64,000 nt of DNA from Pararhizobium sp. YC-54 (lineage in GTDB: Bacteria > Pseudomonadota > Alphaproteobacteria > Rhizobiales > Rhizobiaceae), in contig NZ_JAOYTH010000019.1 of NCBI RefSeq assembly GCF_025847205.1, positions 52,158 to 116,157 on the forward strand. Direction: 5' to 3'. A program made the position numbers and the translations under genes. Positions 14,596 to 64,000 of this stretch are shown here, piece by piece. The notes under the pieces were generated by a model, which did not search any database, had not been told where the DNA came from, and saw only the letters and a list, made by a program, of their open reading frames with translations. Within the stretch, counting starts at the first letter, position 1. Each line of letters starts with the position of its first letter.

Positions 14596-15810
14596 CTATC
14601 CAGCCTTCAAACTCCCCTGTTCGTTGGCCTTCAACAACGCCATTATCATTGGGCCAAGTGAAAATTCTCCACGCGCGCTCCGCCGCGTCAGATCTCGCAA
14701 ATAGCCGCCCGCTGAGTTGATGAAATTCGCACGCTCCAAGATGCAGGCTACCGCCGCCGCCGCATTTTCCGCTCCCATGGCCTCGCAGGCCTCCTGATAG
14801 GCGGACGGGCTCACTCCGAGCATCGATCGAACGACAATCGCGGCCGACATCAAATCGCGCCAGTTCCCGACCACGCCGCCTGGTCCGTAGTCTGAAATCG
14901 TCGGGCACGCCTTCAACACCACACCCAGCGGAAGCGCCCTTATCGGCTCACTCTTTGTCCGGCGTACTTCGCTCAACTTTGCCCCCAGCTCCCTTCGAGA
15001 GCTAGGTTCAAATTCATAAATGGATTCGGGTTTTGAATTCTGTATGTGGCGCTCGCTATGAGCATCATTGGTGCTACTATTTTCGGAATCTTCGTGCTTT
15101 TCCAATCGACTGACTATCTCCTCGCGGAGCATCACCATTTCCTCCAGGACCGACGTTACGTCGGCTAGCGTCGGAACACGCGCAGTCCTGCGCACAAGCG
15201 CCACATAGATGTCCTCTATTGCTTGCCAGTCGCCTTCGGCGCCCTCCTCCATAGCCGCCGTAATTAGCTTTCGGACGTCGCGTCGGCAAATGGTGAGACT
15301 CTCTTTGGCTTTCTTCAACGCTGCTCGTTTGGCCATCACTTGCTGTGCCAGTATCGCCAACTCGTCGGAACGTGCGAGGAGTGGCGACAAGTCGAACCCA
15401 AAAGCACTCTCTATCTGGCCTGCGCTATCCTTGCGAGCGAAGCGCTTTCCGTTGGCACTATCCTTCCGAACAATCAGGCCTGAATCTACAAGGATGGCGA
15501 TATGTCTGCGCAGCGTCGCGCCAGCCATTCCATGGGCTCGAAGCGAAAGCTGAGCATTCGATGGGAAGACAATCAGTTGTGCGTCTTGGCGCAGCTCATT
15601 GTCTGGATAAAAGCTCAACAGCGCATCAAGGACCGCGAGGCTGTTGGATTGGATCCCGAGCAGTTCCATGGCAGCGGAAGCATCCCTGAACACCTTCCAC
15701 TTGTCCGCAGTCTTGCCTTGTTTAATGCTGCACAGCGCTGTTTGGCGCCGCACGAGCGCAAGCGTCATTGGGCGCCGCCCGAATGGCGTCGTCACACTTC
15801 CCGTCTGCAT
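14596..15810 (-). CDS. repC: Replication initiator RepC
   Basis: RepC-family initiator of 404 residues, typical length. The N-terminal winged-helix domain (about 60-150) contains NAQLSLRAHGMAGATLRRHIAILVDSG, and the C-terminal domain contains GPGGVVGNWRDLMSAA and the closing RRSARGEFSLGPMIMALLK. In this family oriV lies inside the repC gene; an A+T-rich stretch at about 15005-15110 in the central variable region fits. It is the last gene of repABC, separated from repB by the ctRNA region that limits its expression. Confidence 0.95.
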   Translation of the reverse strand: MQTGSVTTPFGRRPMTLALVRRQTALCSIKQGKTADKWKVFRDASAAMELLGIQSNSLAVLDALLSFYPDNELRQDAQLIVFPSNAQLSLRAHGMAGATLRRHIAILVDSGLIVRKDSANGKRFARKDSAGQIESAFGFDLSPLLARSDELAILAQQVMAKRAALKKAKESLTICRRDVRKLITAAMEEGAEGDWQAIEDIYVALVRRTARVPTLADVTSVLEEMVMLREEIVSRLEKHEDSENSSTNDAHSERHIQNSKPESIYEFEPSSRRELGAKLSEVRRTKSEPIRALPLGVVLKACPTISDYGPGGVVGNWRDLMSAAIVVRSMLGVSPSAYQEACEAMGAENAAAAVACILERANFINSAGGYLRDLTRRSARGEFSLGPMIMALLKANEQGSLKAG

Positions 15811-15899
15811 TGTCTTTCACCTTTCAGCAGGCAAAAGAAATCAGCTCACCAAAACGGCGCCAAAGACTCTTGACGTGTATTCGAGGAAATGCGATTCTG

Positions 15900-15960
15900 T
15901 TCGTGCTAAAGAGACAGAAGGGCTTCCACGACGGCAACGTTGAGGGGGCTCTTTTCTTTT
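15900..15960 (+). ncRNA. Candidate antisense ctRNA (incA) of repABC
   Basis: The 155-base repB-repC gap holds a plus-strand promoter-like pair, TTGACG (15870-15875) and GATTCT (15893-15898) with 17-base spacing. About 15 bases on is a stem of about 12 bp (AGAAGGGCTTCC with GGGGGCTCTTTTCT, some G-U pairs) enclosing a CAACGTTG loop and ending in TTTTCTTTT. A short RNA of about 55-60 nt would be antisense to the repC leader, as in other repABC plasmids, and would reduce RepC synthesis and set incompatibility. Exact ends are inferred. Confidence 0.65.
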
Positions 15961-15965
15961 GCGGG

Positions 15966-37786: not shown

Positions 37787-38950
37787 TCAGGTGTTGAAGG
37801 AAAAAATGAGGGGCTTTGCAAAAAGCCGCGCCCATGCGGCGGTGCTGGCGCGCTGGATGGCGACGATGGATGTCCCCTTGGTCCACCAGCCATTGCCGAC
37901 CGCAACAATGATGTCCGGATCATGGAGCATGGACTGGAGAACGGGCCAGACGATCAGTTGCTCGTAGCAGATCAGCGGCGCTATCCGGCTGCCGGCGACG
38001 GTCGCGAGCGGGTTTTCGAAGAGGTGCGCCCGCGCGCCGCCGCTTGCCCCAAGCAAGGGCCGCCATGGCTGCCACATCGAGCCCGGAACCGGCATGCGCT
38101 CGCGATAAAGGATCTTGGCGCCGCCACTGGTGAGGGCAACCAGAACATTGTCGTATCCGCCCGCATCGACGATCGCCGCGCCGGCGATAACGGTGACGTC
38201 CGTTCCCTGCAGCGCTCGCACCCAAAGCCGTTCGACGGTGGGCGTCCAGAAGCCAAAAGCGCTTTCGGGAAGCACGATGGTGCGCGCGTCGCCGGAAGCT
38301 TGAGCCATCACCGTGGCAATCAGATCACGGTGCCTGATCATGCTGGTGTCGCGACCGAGCGAAGCGCCCAATTCGAGATCGACGCCACGCCACGTTTCCG
38401 GTAGCCTCAGATCGGTCCAGAATGCGGCGGACCACAGCCAAAAGCCGGAAAGAACGATTGCGACAGCTGGCCACATGCGGGTTACGAGGCCCATGAGGCC
38501 GGCTGTCGTGGCAAGGAGCCCCCACCATCCCGATCCGGGAAACAGCACGCCAGCGGCAGTGATCGGATGCGCCCAGCCGATGATGCCGAATGGCGGAATG
38601 GCCATGAGCAAGGCTGCCGCGAGATACCAAAACGGTCGGGCACGTTCGTTTCTGGTCCACAGCGTCGCGTGGACGCCGACAAAGCCAAGCGAGGCACAGA
38701 GCCAGAGCAGCAGGCCTGGCCCGAGATCGGACGCGTAGAAGGTCGCGACGCCCTGCGGCAGTCCCCGGGACGCTGCCAGGAAATAGCCGGCCGAGACCGA
38801 CGCCGCTGTCAGTCGCGTTCGCGCCAGCGTCCAGAGGACCGGAAACGTCAGCGCGACCGGAAGAAGCAGGACGTGGCCGCTCCAGGCAACCGTTCCAGCA
38901 ACGACGGAAGCGGCAATCAACAGGACTGACTGAGCGTACTCACGGTGCAT
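37787..38950 (-). CDS. traB: Conjugal transfer protein TraB (nitrilase/Lnt-like)
   Basis: Protein of 387 residues. The N-terminal half has about five membrane segments; the C-terminal half is a carbon-nitrogen-hydrolase-like domain with [13 protein letters not shown] (catalytic Glu), [12 protein letters not shown] (Lys is replaced by Arg-Met in the usual K position) and [12 protein letters not shown] (Cys). It resembles apolipoprotein N-acyltransferase. In Ti plasmids TraB raises conjugation efficiency. It overlaps traF by 11 bases. Confidence 0.87.
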
Positions 38951-60314: not shown

Positions 60315-60678
60315 GGGCAAGAGAAGCATCCTCTCCTGTGCGGTTCGTGGATCGCCGTTTTCATCGCCCCGTCCGGGGTGAGCAAGTGACCTGCCTTCGT
60401 CCCGATGGGCTGCCGGGCCACGGGCTCCAGCCCGACATCAACCCGTCCGACGCGTGAGCAAAAAAAAGGGCCAGCGGAGACCGCGGCCCATGAAGTGTGA
60501 AGGTCATAAAACCTCCAGAGGGGAACAGCTGGTGCGGCGGCACTGGGAGGAGAAGCCGCCATGTGCATCAGCTGTGTGCAGAATGCCTGCTTTTTGATCA
60601 AAGGCAAATCACTAATTGTGCAATGCAGCTATGTGCGTGCTGCACTGCATCTAAAAACAGCACCCAAGCAGTGCTGTC
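60315..60678. other. Intergenic, no supported gene
   Basis: Between the coupled plus-strand pair and the 3' end of the disrupted helicase gene. No coding frame or strong hairpin stands out. Confidence 0.45.
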
Positions 60679-61524
60679 TTAAGCCGCCTGTTCGGTTGCA
60701 GCAGTCTGATCGCCGCTGTCGGAAGCAAGGGCCGCGTCGATTGCCCTGAGGTTCCGGCGCTTTTCCGCGAGTTCGCCCTCGAGCGGGAAATCCCCGCAGT
60801 CGCCGCGCGACCCGCCGTCACCGCGTGACCCGCAGTCACCGCGTGACCGGTAGGAGGCCAGCCGGCGCCCGGCATCGACGAGCCGCTGGCGATACCGTTC
60901 ACGCTCTTCTTCGAACCCGCCGAGTGCGTGCTCGAGGCGGGAAATCGCGCCGAGCGGCGTCACGGTCACCGGTAGTTCGATCTCCTGGAAACCACCAGTG
61001 CGCTGGAGCATCGTGGAGTACCGATAACCGCCCTTGCCGACGCGCTGGCCCTCATAGGCAAGATCGAAGGCACCGATCGAGGCGATGACAGTCTCGTGTT
61101 CATGCTGCAGCTGGACGAGGGTCAGGATTTCTTTCATCAGCGCCCGGCCCGCCTGCTTGCGATCGTCAAAAGACTGAGCACCGATGGTCATGACGAAGGC
61201 ATCGCCTGCTGTCGCGATCCTTCGCTTGAGGTCCTCACCGATTTCGCTGATGCGGCGGGTTGCATGTTCGATATCGCGCTTCGCGTCGCGGATTTGCCGG
61301 CGCACCGCGTGCTGGTCGTCGATATGGGCGGCGCGCAGCCGTTCGAGCCGCGCGATGTCGGCTTCCAGTCCCGCCTTTTGCATCAGGCGCTGGTCGCCGG
61401 ATGCGATCGCTTTGGCCATGGCGAACTGGTTCGCCTGGCCCTCGCCGAGATCTTCCAGTCGGCGGATCGAAGTGTCGCCGGAAAGCGCTGCCGCGATGAA
61501 GCGGGCCTTGCGCTCGTTGTTCTG
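60679..61524 (-). pseudogene. 3' fragment of a giant helicase gene, separated by IS insertion
   Basis: In-frame continuation of the fragment at 62885-63857 after removal of the IS: TMW joins QNNERKARFIAAALSGDTSIRRLEDLGEGQANQF. About 281 residues of helical C-terminal tail, with SRGDxG repeats and a TAA stop at 60679. Large helicase genes of this strawberry-notch-like type are common near plasmid leading regions; the loss of continuity implies inactivation. Confidence 0.82.
60794..60847. repeat. Three 18-bp tandem repeats inside the helicase tail
   Basis: Units CCGCAGTCGCCGCGCGAC, CCGCCGTCACCGCGTGAC and CCGCAGTCACCGCGTGAC, each encoding a SRGDxG hexapeptide on the minus strand. In-frame length variation would be tolerated. 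Confidence 0.85.
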
Positions 61525-61602
61525 ATGGGGTGGACGCCCCCTCGACGGCATCGAAGTGCCAAAGTGGTAGAGTGTTTCATCCACAACAGAAGGAGCGTCC
61601 GC

Positions 61603-62625
61603 ATGAACATTAGCACGATCGGATTGGATTTGGCGAAAAACGTGTTTCAGGTACATGGAGCGGATGTGTCCGGGACGCCTGTCCTTCGTATGAAATTGCG
61701 CCGCGACCATGTTCTGAAGTTCTTTGCGAAACAGCCTCCCTGCCTCGTCGCAATGGAAGCATGTGGGGGAGCTCACTACTGGGGACGTGAGATCGGAAAG
61801 CTTGGGCATCAAGTCCGCCTCATTCCACCAGCCTACGTTAAGCCGTTCGTCAAACGCCAGAAAAACGATGCCTCCGACGCAGAAGCCATTTGCGAGGCGG
61901 TGCAGCGTCCGACGATGCGTTTCGTCAACGTCAAAAGCGAGGAGAGACAGGCCAGCATCGCAGCCTTCCGAGTTCGTGACCTGCTGGTCCGCCAACGGAC
62001 GCAGGCAATCAATGCCTTGCGAGGTCACGTTACAGAATACGGTATTGTTGTTCCGCAAGGTCCCACGCACATTCCACGGCTTCTGGAATGGATCGAAAGT
62101 GCAGAGAATGGATTGCCTGATGCAGCCCGGCTCGCGCTGGGTATCCTCATCGAGACCCTGAGGCGGCTAGAGGATCAGATAAAACACCTCGGGACCGAAA
62201 TTGTCCGGCGCGCTCGTGAAGATGCGGAGGCCCGTCGTTTGGCAACGGTACCTGGAGTGGGCGCTATTACCGCCACCGCCCTGATTGCTCTTGCACCGGA
62301 AGCCTCGACCTTCAAAAAGGGAAGAGATTTTGCGGCCTGGGTCGGGCTCACGCCACTACAACATTCAACCGGAGGAAAACAGAAGCTGGGGGCAACGTCG
62401 AAAATGGGCGATCGAACGTTGCGACGTTTGCTCATCATCGGGGCTAGTTCAGTGGTAAAGCAGGCACTCCGAAAGGGTTGCCAAGACCAATCGTGGCTGG
62501 GGCGTATGCTCGCTCGAAAGCCGCCTATGCTTGTGATCTTCGCTCTTGCCAACAAGATGGCCCGTACCATTTGGGCATTAATGGCGCGAGGCGGGATCTA
62601 TCAGGCTCCGACCGCGGCCGTGTAG
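61603..62625 (+). CDS. IS110-family (DEDD) transposase
   Basis: 340 residues from an ATG with AAGGAG upstream. The N-terminal RuvC-like DEDD domain has IGLDLAKNVFQVHGAD, CLVAMEACGGAHYWG and KNDASDAEAICEA; the C-terminal Tnp domain has ATVPGVGAITATALIA and FAAWVGLTPLQHSTGGKQKLG with the conserved Ser region near SKMGDRTLRRLLIIGAS. Length is normal and the frame is intact, so the element may be active. Confidence 0.93.
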   Translation: MNISTIGLDLAKNVFQVHGADVSGTPVLRMKLRRDHVLKFFAKQPPCLVAMEACGGAHYWGREIGKLGHQVRLIPPAYVKPFVKRQKNDASDAEAICEAVQRPTMRFVNVKSEERQASIAAFRVRDLLVRQRTQAINALRGHVTEYGIVVPQGPTHIPRLLEWIESAENGLPDAARLALGILIETLRRLEDQIKHLGTEIVRRAREDAEARRLATVPGVGAITATALIALAPEASTFKKGRDFAAWVGLTPLQHSTGGKQKLGATSKMGDRTLRRLLIIGASSVVKQALRKGCQDQSWLGRMLARKPPMLVIFALANKMARTIWALMARGGIYQAPTAAV

Positions 62626-62884
62626 CCGTCGGTCCGAGGTCGTCGAGAATGTGAGAGGTCAACGGAGAGTATGGCGCAATAGTCAATGAGACGGAGCCGG
62701 TAAGCCAGTATGTGGCAGAGCGACCAGAGCGCGCTGTTTTGATTTGGAACCGGTTCGCGAACTCCCATACGGGCCGGCGGCGTCTTGAAAGCCGCGACAG
62801 AGGCCGGACAGATGTCAGCACCCGATTATTGCCCGCCTGCCAACCGAAAGATTCTTCTTGCATTCCCCGGGGCGTCCACAGATG
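62626..62884 (+). ncRNA. Candidate bridge/seek RNA locus of the IS1111-type element
   Basis: Non-coding 3' end of the element, where IS1111-type members are reported to encode their guide RNA. ATGTGGCAGA at 62710-62719 is identical to the reconstructed empty target across the insertion point (ATGTGG joined to CAGA, minus strand). ACAGATG at 62808-62814 repeats the right terminus (62878-62884), as a donor-recognition segment might. RNA ends and folding are not determined. Confidence 0.6.
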
Positions 62885-63857
62885 CCACATGGTCGCGTCG
62901 AGTGAGCCTTCGGTGGCGTAGGCGAAGATATCGATCTCGTCATGCTGGTTGCCCTGACGCACGATCCGGCCCTCGCGCTGCTCGATCTGCGACGGCAGCC
63001 ACGGGACATCGAGATGGTGCAGCGCCTTCAGCCGCAATTGCGCATTAACGCCGGTGCCCATGGTCTCGGACGAGCCAATCAGAAACCGGACCTTGCCGGC
63101 GCGGACATCGCCGAAAAGCCGCTGCTTCGCCGAGGACTTCTTGTAATCCTGCATGAAGGCGATTTCCGATGCTGGCACGCCCATGCGGACGAGCTCGTTC
63201 CGGATCCAGCGATAGGCCGAGAAGCCCCGGGTCTTCTCGACCGAGATTGTGCCGAGGTCGGAAAAGATCATCTGCGCCGCACCCGGCAGGTCGTAGGATT
63301 TGCCGTCCGCACGGAGGTAGGTGGTCTCCGCAGTTTCGTTCCAGATGCGGAAGGCTTTCGCAACCAGATTGTTGAGCTTGTTGTCCGGCTCATTGTCATT
63401 GTCCGGATCGACCAGCCGCAGATCGATCGCCGCATGCCTGCCATCGGTGATGACCGAAAGCAGGATATCGTCGCCCGGCTCCGGCGGCCGGTCGCGTTCC
63501 TCGATCGCCTTGATGCGGGCGTCGAGCACCGTCTGGTAACGTTTGAAGGCCTCAGTTGGCTTCGAGGTGATGATCTGCCGCTTGCCGGTCGAGATATCAG
63601 GCACCTTCACGTACTGGCGCAAATCCTCGGACATCACGACATCCGCAAACGAACGGAACATCGCGATCAGCTCGGGCACGTTGACGAAGCTCGCGAAGCG
63701 GCTGACCGGCTTGTACTTGCCGGACGGCTGGAGTTCGAGCTCGGTCGTCGTGTCGCCGAAGGTCGAGGCCCAGGCGTCGAACTCATGCAGCCCGCGCTCC
63801 ATCAGGGCCGAATGACCCATCAGCCGCTGGACGGTGAACATCTCGCCGAGCGTGTTT
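62885..63857 (-). pseudogene. Middle fragment of the giant helicase gene (C-terminal helicase domain)
   Basis: Reads NTLGEMFTVQRLM at its upstream edge, then LHEFDAWASTFGDTTTELELQPSGKYKPVSRF, and helicase motif VI in QIEQREGRIVRQGNQHDEIDIF, ending SLDATMW at the IS110 junction. This is the second RecA-like domain of a strawberry-notch/SNF2-type helicase. The upstream codons (expected TPxT) are lost to another insertion at about 63857. Confidence 0.82.
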
Positions 63858-64000
63858 GTTTTCTCCCGAGCTCGGGAGAATACCAATTATTTGTAGGAGA
63901 TATTTATGTCGAGTACGCCGAGCAAAGGCGTGGCTTTTCAAGGATAAGACATGGATTTTACTCCGGATAATTAGGGGCATCCCGCCGCCTGATGAACTGG
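63858..64000. mobile_element. End of a second inserted element, continuing past the window
   Basis: The helicase homology stops abruptly at about 63857. The remaining sequence starts with TGTTTTCTCC and contains a perfect 20-bp palindrome (63861-63880), then A+T-richer DNA with no long frame. It is probably the end of an IS or other element, family unknown. Confidence 0.55.
63861..63880. repeat. Perfect 20-bp palindrome at the insertion edge
   Basis: TTCTCCCGAGCTCGGGAGAA is its own reverse complement with no spacer. It lies within three bases of the point where helicase homology ends, so it is probably the terminus of the inserted element. Confidence 0.8.

Follow-up and report, generated by a model that had tools for sequence, protein, structure and literature searches.

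Covariation among relatives points to a guide RNA, with target guides and probably donor guides, in the 3' end of an IS1111-type insertion sequence

The window analysed here, a stretch of 64,000 nucleotides from Pararhizobium sp. YC-54, contains at 61525-62884 a 1360-bp IS1111-type insertion sequence on a bacterial plasmid, and an earlier note on the same DNA had pointed out that ten bases in the non-coding 3' end of this element match the element's own target across the insertion junction. The locus raises two questions: does this end encode a guide RNA (seekRNA or bridge RNA) that reads the target, and would such an RNA also read the ends of the element itself? The element is made up as follows:

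61525..62884, + strand: IS1111-type insertion sequence (empty sites in five plasmids, three of them read; ends of relatives alike)
61530..61540, + strand: left subterminal inverted repeat GTGGACGCCCC, 11 bp
61603..62625, + strand: IS110-family (IS1111-type) transposase, 340 aa (PF01548 and PF02371; NF033542)
62626..62884, + strand: 3' non-coding end, encoding the predicted seekRNA/bridge RNA
62869..62879, + strand: right subterminal inverted repeat GGGGCGTCCAC, 11 bp

The transposase reached 332 bits against the NCBIfam model NF033542 ("IS110 family RNA-guided transposase"; cut-off 140), and its PF02371 domain and its 340 aa agree with what characterizes a DEDD transposase (a PF02371 domain in about 330-350 aa). 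Its C-terminal domain includes GLTPLQHSTG, an instance of the motif GL-P----S(t)G that is described for this domain in the IS1111 group (PMC11187229), and the only sequences of solved structure similar to it at E ≤ 0.01 were those of ISCro4 (9t56) and IS621 (8wt6). The 11-bp repeat falls inside the 7-17 bp given for subterminal inverted repeats of the IS1111 group (PMC11208160), many relatives carry such repeats too, and the non-coding DNA amounts to 259 bp downstream of the transposase gene versus 78 bp upstream. Since an 11-bp subterminal inverted repeat is combined with a 259-bp non-coding 3' end, the element is IS1111-type and, as judged from its sequence, a member of the IS1111 group of the IS110 family. 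The guide-RNA region gave no Rfam match at the gathering score. Family, motif, repeats and the covariation described below all agree with the earlier reading of an IS1111-type element with a guide RNA in its 3' non-coding end.

The element lies in opposite orientation inside a helicase-like minus-strand gene (PF00271 in the part 62525-63886), whose homologs on other plasmids have varied annotations, several of them DEAD/DEAH-box helicase. Plasmids were searched with each flank separately, which gave 506 and 568 matching records, and the best 15 of each were compared. Five plasmids (NZ_CP071609, NZ_KY000066, NZ_CP122441, NZ_CP104146 and NZ_KY000069) were common to both sets of 15, and in all five the left-flank match abuts the right-flank match exactly, showing that the insertion in the window has no target duplication. 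The empty site reads TTGTTCTG|CCACAT in each of the three plasmids that were read, the insertion target of the window element being TTGTTCTGCCACAT. The proposal that removing 61525-62884 restores the target was thus borne out by a real uninterrupted site. The exact boundary of the element is ambiguous by two bases and, because TG stands at both ends, removing 61523-62882, 61524-62883 or 61525-62884 restores the same site:

61523..61524, + strand: core dinucleotide TG, left copy
62883..62884, + strand: core dinucleotide TG, right copy

The genome itself holds two more exact copies of the 14-base target, both unoccupied (C7:314964-314977, L114; C20:109111-109124, L115) and both surrounded by sequence that shares about 80-82% identity with the flanks. 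The replicon is presumably a repABC-type conjugative plasmid, which we take from its open reading frames and Rfam matches. The Rfam matches comprise the ar15 sRNA (60462-60573, minus strand), an S-element (15808-15875, minus strand), the Atu_Ti1 sRNA (38415-38506, plus strand) and the antisense RNA ctRNA_p42d (15916-15962, plus strand). By eye, a short tandem repeat lies at about 60800-60850, within the 3' portion of the interrupted gene, and encodes SRGDCG-like repeats on the minus strand.

Since no further copies of the window element were found, the covariation of the match with targets was checked on relatives only: the host genome holds a single copy, 26 genomes of the genus gave only this same copy at E ≤ 1e-60, a word-28 search of plasmids returned no record with one place covering 80% of the element, and full-length relatives reach about 71% identity at best. 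Relatives were gathered by scanning genomes with the transposase, which supplied the best 80 loci (56-76% identity), and 394 genomes of the family supplied 29 further loci, some repeating the same contigs. From 115 transposase matches we retained 82 elements with both ends and flanks, the window element included. The other 33 were excluded because no end lay in range, the ends had too many mismatches, a flank was short or the element was a duplicate. After alignment of the non-coding ends of the 82, clustering at 90% identity reduced them to 57. Covariation of each alignment column with the flanks was scored on these 57 by how often the column agreed with the flank of the same element, compared with 500 permutations of flanks among elements; relatives share descent, so that the z-scores below overstate independence. 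An identical dinucleotide was found at both ends in 73 of the 82 elements (50 TG, 19 CG, 3 AG and 1 CA), as would be expected from a core shared by target and donor.

The segment noted earlier, ATGTGGCAGA at 62710-62719, does match the target across the insertion junction, and two target guides emerged from the covariation analysis:

62710..62718, + strand: target guide T (right target guide), complementary to the top strand: right flank +6 to +1, core TG and left flank -3
62735..62741, + strand: bottom-strand target guide B, defined by covariation with the left flank

The first guide, ATGTGGCAG, is the complement of the top strand CTG|CCACAT, and the second, TGTTTTG, corresponds to the left flank TGTTCTG (61518-61524) with one G.U pair. 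Among the 57 elements, columns 62710 and 62712-62715 are complementary to right-flank positions +6 and +4 to +1 (z 5.6-7.2), and columns 62735-62740 are identical to left-flank positions -7 to -2 (z 7.6-10.2). In the 36 elements with a TG core, where the core itself is invariant, 62710-62715 covary with target positions +6 to +1 (z 3.6-6.6), 62718 covaries with -3 (z 4.1) and the second guide covaries at -7 to -3. In the same 36 elements, 62719 does not covary with target position -4 (z 0.8). Of the ten bases taken for a target match, nine (62710-62718) thus form the guide, and the match at the tenth is probably a coincidence. Some off-diagonal pairs also exceeded z 5 among the 57 elements (62715/+2, 62712/-6, 62782/-2 and 62815/+1), which may reflect one extra loop base in some elements and clade structure.

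The guides also favour the targets of their own elements. When the guides of the window element were scored on all 57 targets, its own target came first, alone, for T, for B and for T+B. Over the 57 elements, the score averaged 13.8 on the own target versus 8.2 on other targets, the own-target sum was reached by 0 of 20,000 permutations, and the own target ranked first (ties allowed) in 40 elements and in the top five in 53. Seven elements fit their own flanks poorly: L089, L018, L031, L083, L053, L098 and L103. In L018, L083, L098 and L103 the left end is interrupted by another element, and in L089, L031 and L053 the flanks have perhaps been rearranged. The reservation had been that the left and right guides of such RNAs are usually separated, so that one contiguous match might be a variation or partly coincidental. 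It falls, because a separate bottom-strand segment exists at 62735-62741, missed at first, and because the target segments of studied IS1111 elements are separate in the RNA and overlap in the target, as described for ISEc11 (PMC11187229). In IS1111 3' seekRNAs the top-strand segment precedes the bottom-strand segment (PMC11187229), and this is the arrangement of the predicted window RNA, with its top-strand segment 5' of the bottom-strand segment and the two overlapping in the target. With covariation clearly in favour across the relatives (82 elements, 57 after clustering), the noted segment is almost certainly the top-strand target guide of an IS1111-type seekRNA/bridge RNA, as far as comparison of sequences can tell.

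Several flanks and ends deserve mention in their own right. One flank alone fits the guides in L089 and L031 (left) and in L085 (right), as if rearranged after insertion. The right terminus of L018 is seemingly doubled (GGGGCGTCCACACACG, then TCCACACATG), with the predicted right target after the second copy, and the boundary assigned to this end is probably wrong. L018, L083, L084, L098 and L103 carry a common foreign sequence in their left end, ending CGCGATTAC|CCCATG, and the adjoining opposite-strand frame in L098 is another IS110-family transposase (PF02371, PF01548); an IS110-type element seems to target the ends of these five IS1111 elements.

Closely related elements indicate that guides and targets change jointly while the remaining RNA end stays constant. 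Among the 205 pairs from all 82 elements that are at least 80% identical outside the guides, guide identity correlated with target identity (r 0.69) and identity in the rest of the non-coding end did not (r 0.08). With the five interrupted elements removed (184 pairs), r was 0.76 for the guides versus 0.02 for the rest, and with 74 elements (181 pairs) it was 0.79 versus 0.05. The set of 74 omits the five elements with an interrupted left end, L010_1482, L089 and L031; since one flank of L089 and L031 misfits the guides, their omission favours the guide reading, and the comparison was repeated on all 82 for this reason. No weight is given to p-values here, because element pairs are not independent. 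L096 and L099, 84% alike outside the guides, share only 18% of guide positions and 18% of target positions. Conversely, the pairs L035/L036 and L076/L077, each pair within a genome of its own, combine identical guides with similar targets and occupy two sites each. Exceptions are L086/L087 and L007/L085, which have the same guides and quite different targets. Natural reprogramming is already known for ISEc11/ISXne4 (PMC11187229), and the present set constitutes a clean natural experiment on RNA-programmed transposition within a mainly alphaproteobacterial IS1111 clade.

Consensus folding by RNAalifold of 47 of the 57 non-coding ends (omitted from the structure counts were two reverse-strand ends, six below 58% identity, L031 and L061) placed the target guides on the opposing sides of an internal loop, and two donor guides, described below, next to a second hairpin, one before and one after it:

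62694..62756, + strand: target-binding stem-loop, with outer helix 62694-62700/62749-62756, CCA/UGG helix 62705-62707/62745-62747 and inner hairpin 62720-62723/62729-62732
62772..62805, + strand: hairpin between the donor guides, with helices 62772-62775/62802-62805 and 62777-62781/62791-62795

In the 47 ends, 97.2% of the cells of these helices are paired, versus 25-42% in slid versions of the same helices, and two-sided changes occur in 14 of 24 helix pairs versus 5.9 in shuffles. None of 500 shuffles reached any of the five helix measures, a control that leans favourable since the structure was derived from the alignment on which it was counted and the sequences are related. The helices of the target loop covary, and the donor-side hairpin is conserved and covaries partly. 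Of the two internal loops that the two noted matches were expected to occupy, the first was recovered with the target match inside it; the donor match lies beside a hairpin for which no outer closing helix of a donor loop was established.

In the window itself, the end pair A62723-G62729 of the inner 4-bp hairpin is non-standard, and the target stem-loop is more stable than shuffled versions (z -2.84; 3 of 200 as good). Stability was not unusual for the two-loop stretch 62690-62830 (z -0.94) or for the whole 259-base end (free energy, z -1.08). In a single-sequence fold the target guides partly pair with each other, as expected since they overlap in the target.

The second question concerns the ends of the element, and two segments bear on it:

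62808..62814, + strand: left donor guide ACAGATG, identical to the right terminus 62878-62884
62763..62768, + strand: candidate right donor guide UCCCAU, complementary to the left terminus ATGGGG (61525-61530) with one G.U; moderate confidence

ACAGATG had been noted as a copy of the last seven bases of the element, and these letters were confirmed. Moreover, the 7-mer covaries with the right end of its own element: it is identical to the own right terminus in 75 of the 82 elements, its variants including ACACATG, ACACACG, ATACATG, ACATATG and ACAAAAG, and Fitch counts on the transposase tree put the number of co-located changes at five or more for each of the positions -6, -4 and -2 (82 elements). 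By its sequence, ACAGATG resembles a donor guide, one that would pair with the bottom strand of the right end. For the candidate partner of the left end, none of 20,000 permutations reached the observed fit in 53 of the 57 elements, and at least four co-located changes were counted, at +5 only. Of 77 elements, 18 leave this partner unpaired at +4 and 9 leave it unpaired at +1 (interrupted elements were omitted from this test, leaving 77 of 82 and 53 of 57, and tree counts were made on all 82). We regard covariation with a donor guide as shown for the right end and as likely for the left end.

These observations have to be weighed against a seekRNA that reads only the target, the ends being recognized by the transposase through the inverted repeats that many relatives carry; ACAGATG at 62808-62814 would then be a protein-binding repeat or part of a precursor, or would track the terminus in some other way. 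A protein-bound repeat could co-evolve with the terminus as well. An argument for this alternative comes from ISEc11, where an 82-nt seekRNA, for which only target segments are named, gave 42% transposition in a reporter assay and outdid a 154-nt form (about 15%; PMC11187229). According to the same source, it is not known what the long form does or which domain binds the IS ends. In the window, the outer target helix, the donor guide and everything between them take up 121 nt, which fits the 154-nt form and not the 82-nt form, so that the donor guide would not be strictly needed in ISEc11 if the layouts are alike; that the 82-nt RNA suffices, being probably too short for a donor loop, counts against a donor loop that is needed. 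Against the alternative stand the 7-mer that follows the right terminus (identity in 75 of 82, at least five co-located changes at three positions) and the second segment, beside the same hairpin, that fits the left end. We consider a target-only RNA unlikely on balance, and the donor part of the guide-RNA explanation reasonably probable, with clearly less confidence than its target part.

Matches at the DNA level, left by captured flanking DNA or kept as recombination homology with no RNA involved, would leave similar letters, and transcription cannot be read from DNA sequence alone; this explanation is very improbable, given that the two target segments match opposite strands from opposite sides of a loop, that the surrounding helices covary as RNA pairs do and that studied IS1111 elements make such RNAs (PMC11187229). 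Chance is hardly credible: a junction-spanning match of at least 10 bases to the 18-base target, on either strand, did arise in 7 of 4,000 dinucleotide shuffles of the 259-base end (about 0.2%, in line with the earlier estimate of well under 1 percent), and position, strand and covariation in relatives all speak against it.

Altogether, the 3' end very likely encodes an IS1111-type guide RNA with target and donor guides. In such a model, the RNA would hold the target guides on the two sides of one loop, and a second loop would, most likely, hold the two donor guides around the second hairpin, 62763-62768 pairing with the left end and 62808-62814 with the right end as these abut in an excised circle. 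By analogy with studied elements, the RNA bound by the transposase would pair with both target strands and, probably, with the joined ends too; recombination of the circle would take place at the core TG. Transposase and RNA would then insert the circle at TTGTTCTG|CCACAT in a single orientation, with the core TG in common and no duplication left behind. The same analogy leads us to infer that the RNA is produced, that the transposase binds and needs it, that the circle forms and that the chemistry is of this kind. The junction of the circle would also place a TTGCAT box 17 bp from a junction-spanning GATGAT, a possible promoter for both transposase and RNA:

62858..62863, + strand: -35-like TTGCAT, putative promoter element

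A TTG[CA]NN box begins 27 bases from the end in 50 of the 82 elements and 24 bases from the end in 18 of them.

IS1111 seekRNAs and bridge RNAs are a kind of RNA already known. The predicted window RNA resembles the seekRNAs of ISEc11, ISPa11, ISKpn4 and ISPst6 (Siddiquee et al. 2024, PMC11187229) in its location at the 3' end, the order of its segments, their overlap in the target (stated for ISEc11) and the lack of a target duplication, and the elements are alike in their subterminal inverted repeats, a transposase of about 340 aa and relatives that are naturally reprogrammed. It differs from them in its target and in the donor-guide match, which is not named in the available excerpts of that paper. 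What is new here is the covariation test of target and donor guides across an IS1111 clade. A search of titles and abstract openings, with most subscription papers and bioRxiv outside its scope, returned no report of donor-guide covariation in IS1111. Covariation at the donor ends bears on how IS1111 ends are recognized, a point left open in PMC11187229, and is in tension with the short RNA sufficing for ISEc11 in that work. The boundaries of the guides (target -7 to +6, core TG) would also be of use if such elements were turned into insertion tools.

The comparison extends to the bridge RNA of IS621/IS110 (Durrant et al. 2024, PMC11208160; Hiraizumi et al. 2024, PMC11208158), which likewise has a target loop and a donor loop, each guiding both strands, and a shared core dinucleotide. 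However, the predicted window RNA lies 3' of the transposase gene whereas the IS621 bridge RNA lies 5' of it; the top-strand guide comes first in the target loop, the reverse of IS621, and the donor loop would be reversed as well if the left-end guide is right; the core is TG instead of CT; and the window element has long inverted repeats, unlike IS621. Comparable, too, are the bridge RNAs predicted for IS1111 elements by Durrant et al. 2024: 93.0% of IS1111s were predicted to have one, for the most part at the right end, and three of the six named examples belong to the IS1111 group (PMC11208160). These too are right-end RNAs, and their donor nucleotides lie in a second loop of greater complexity. 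The donor match rests there on inspection and here on covariation across 82 elements; in the passages of PMC11208160 consulted, covariation was analysed on IS621-like RNAs in left ends. We lean, somewhat more cautiously than for the donor guides themselves, towards IS1111 RNAs as true bispecific bridge RNAs, with both loops mirror-ordered relative to IS621 and termini that evolve with the donor guides; if so, IS1111 ends would be read by RNA and not solely through their long inverted repeats.
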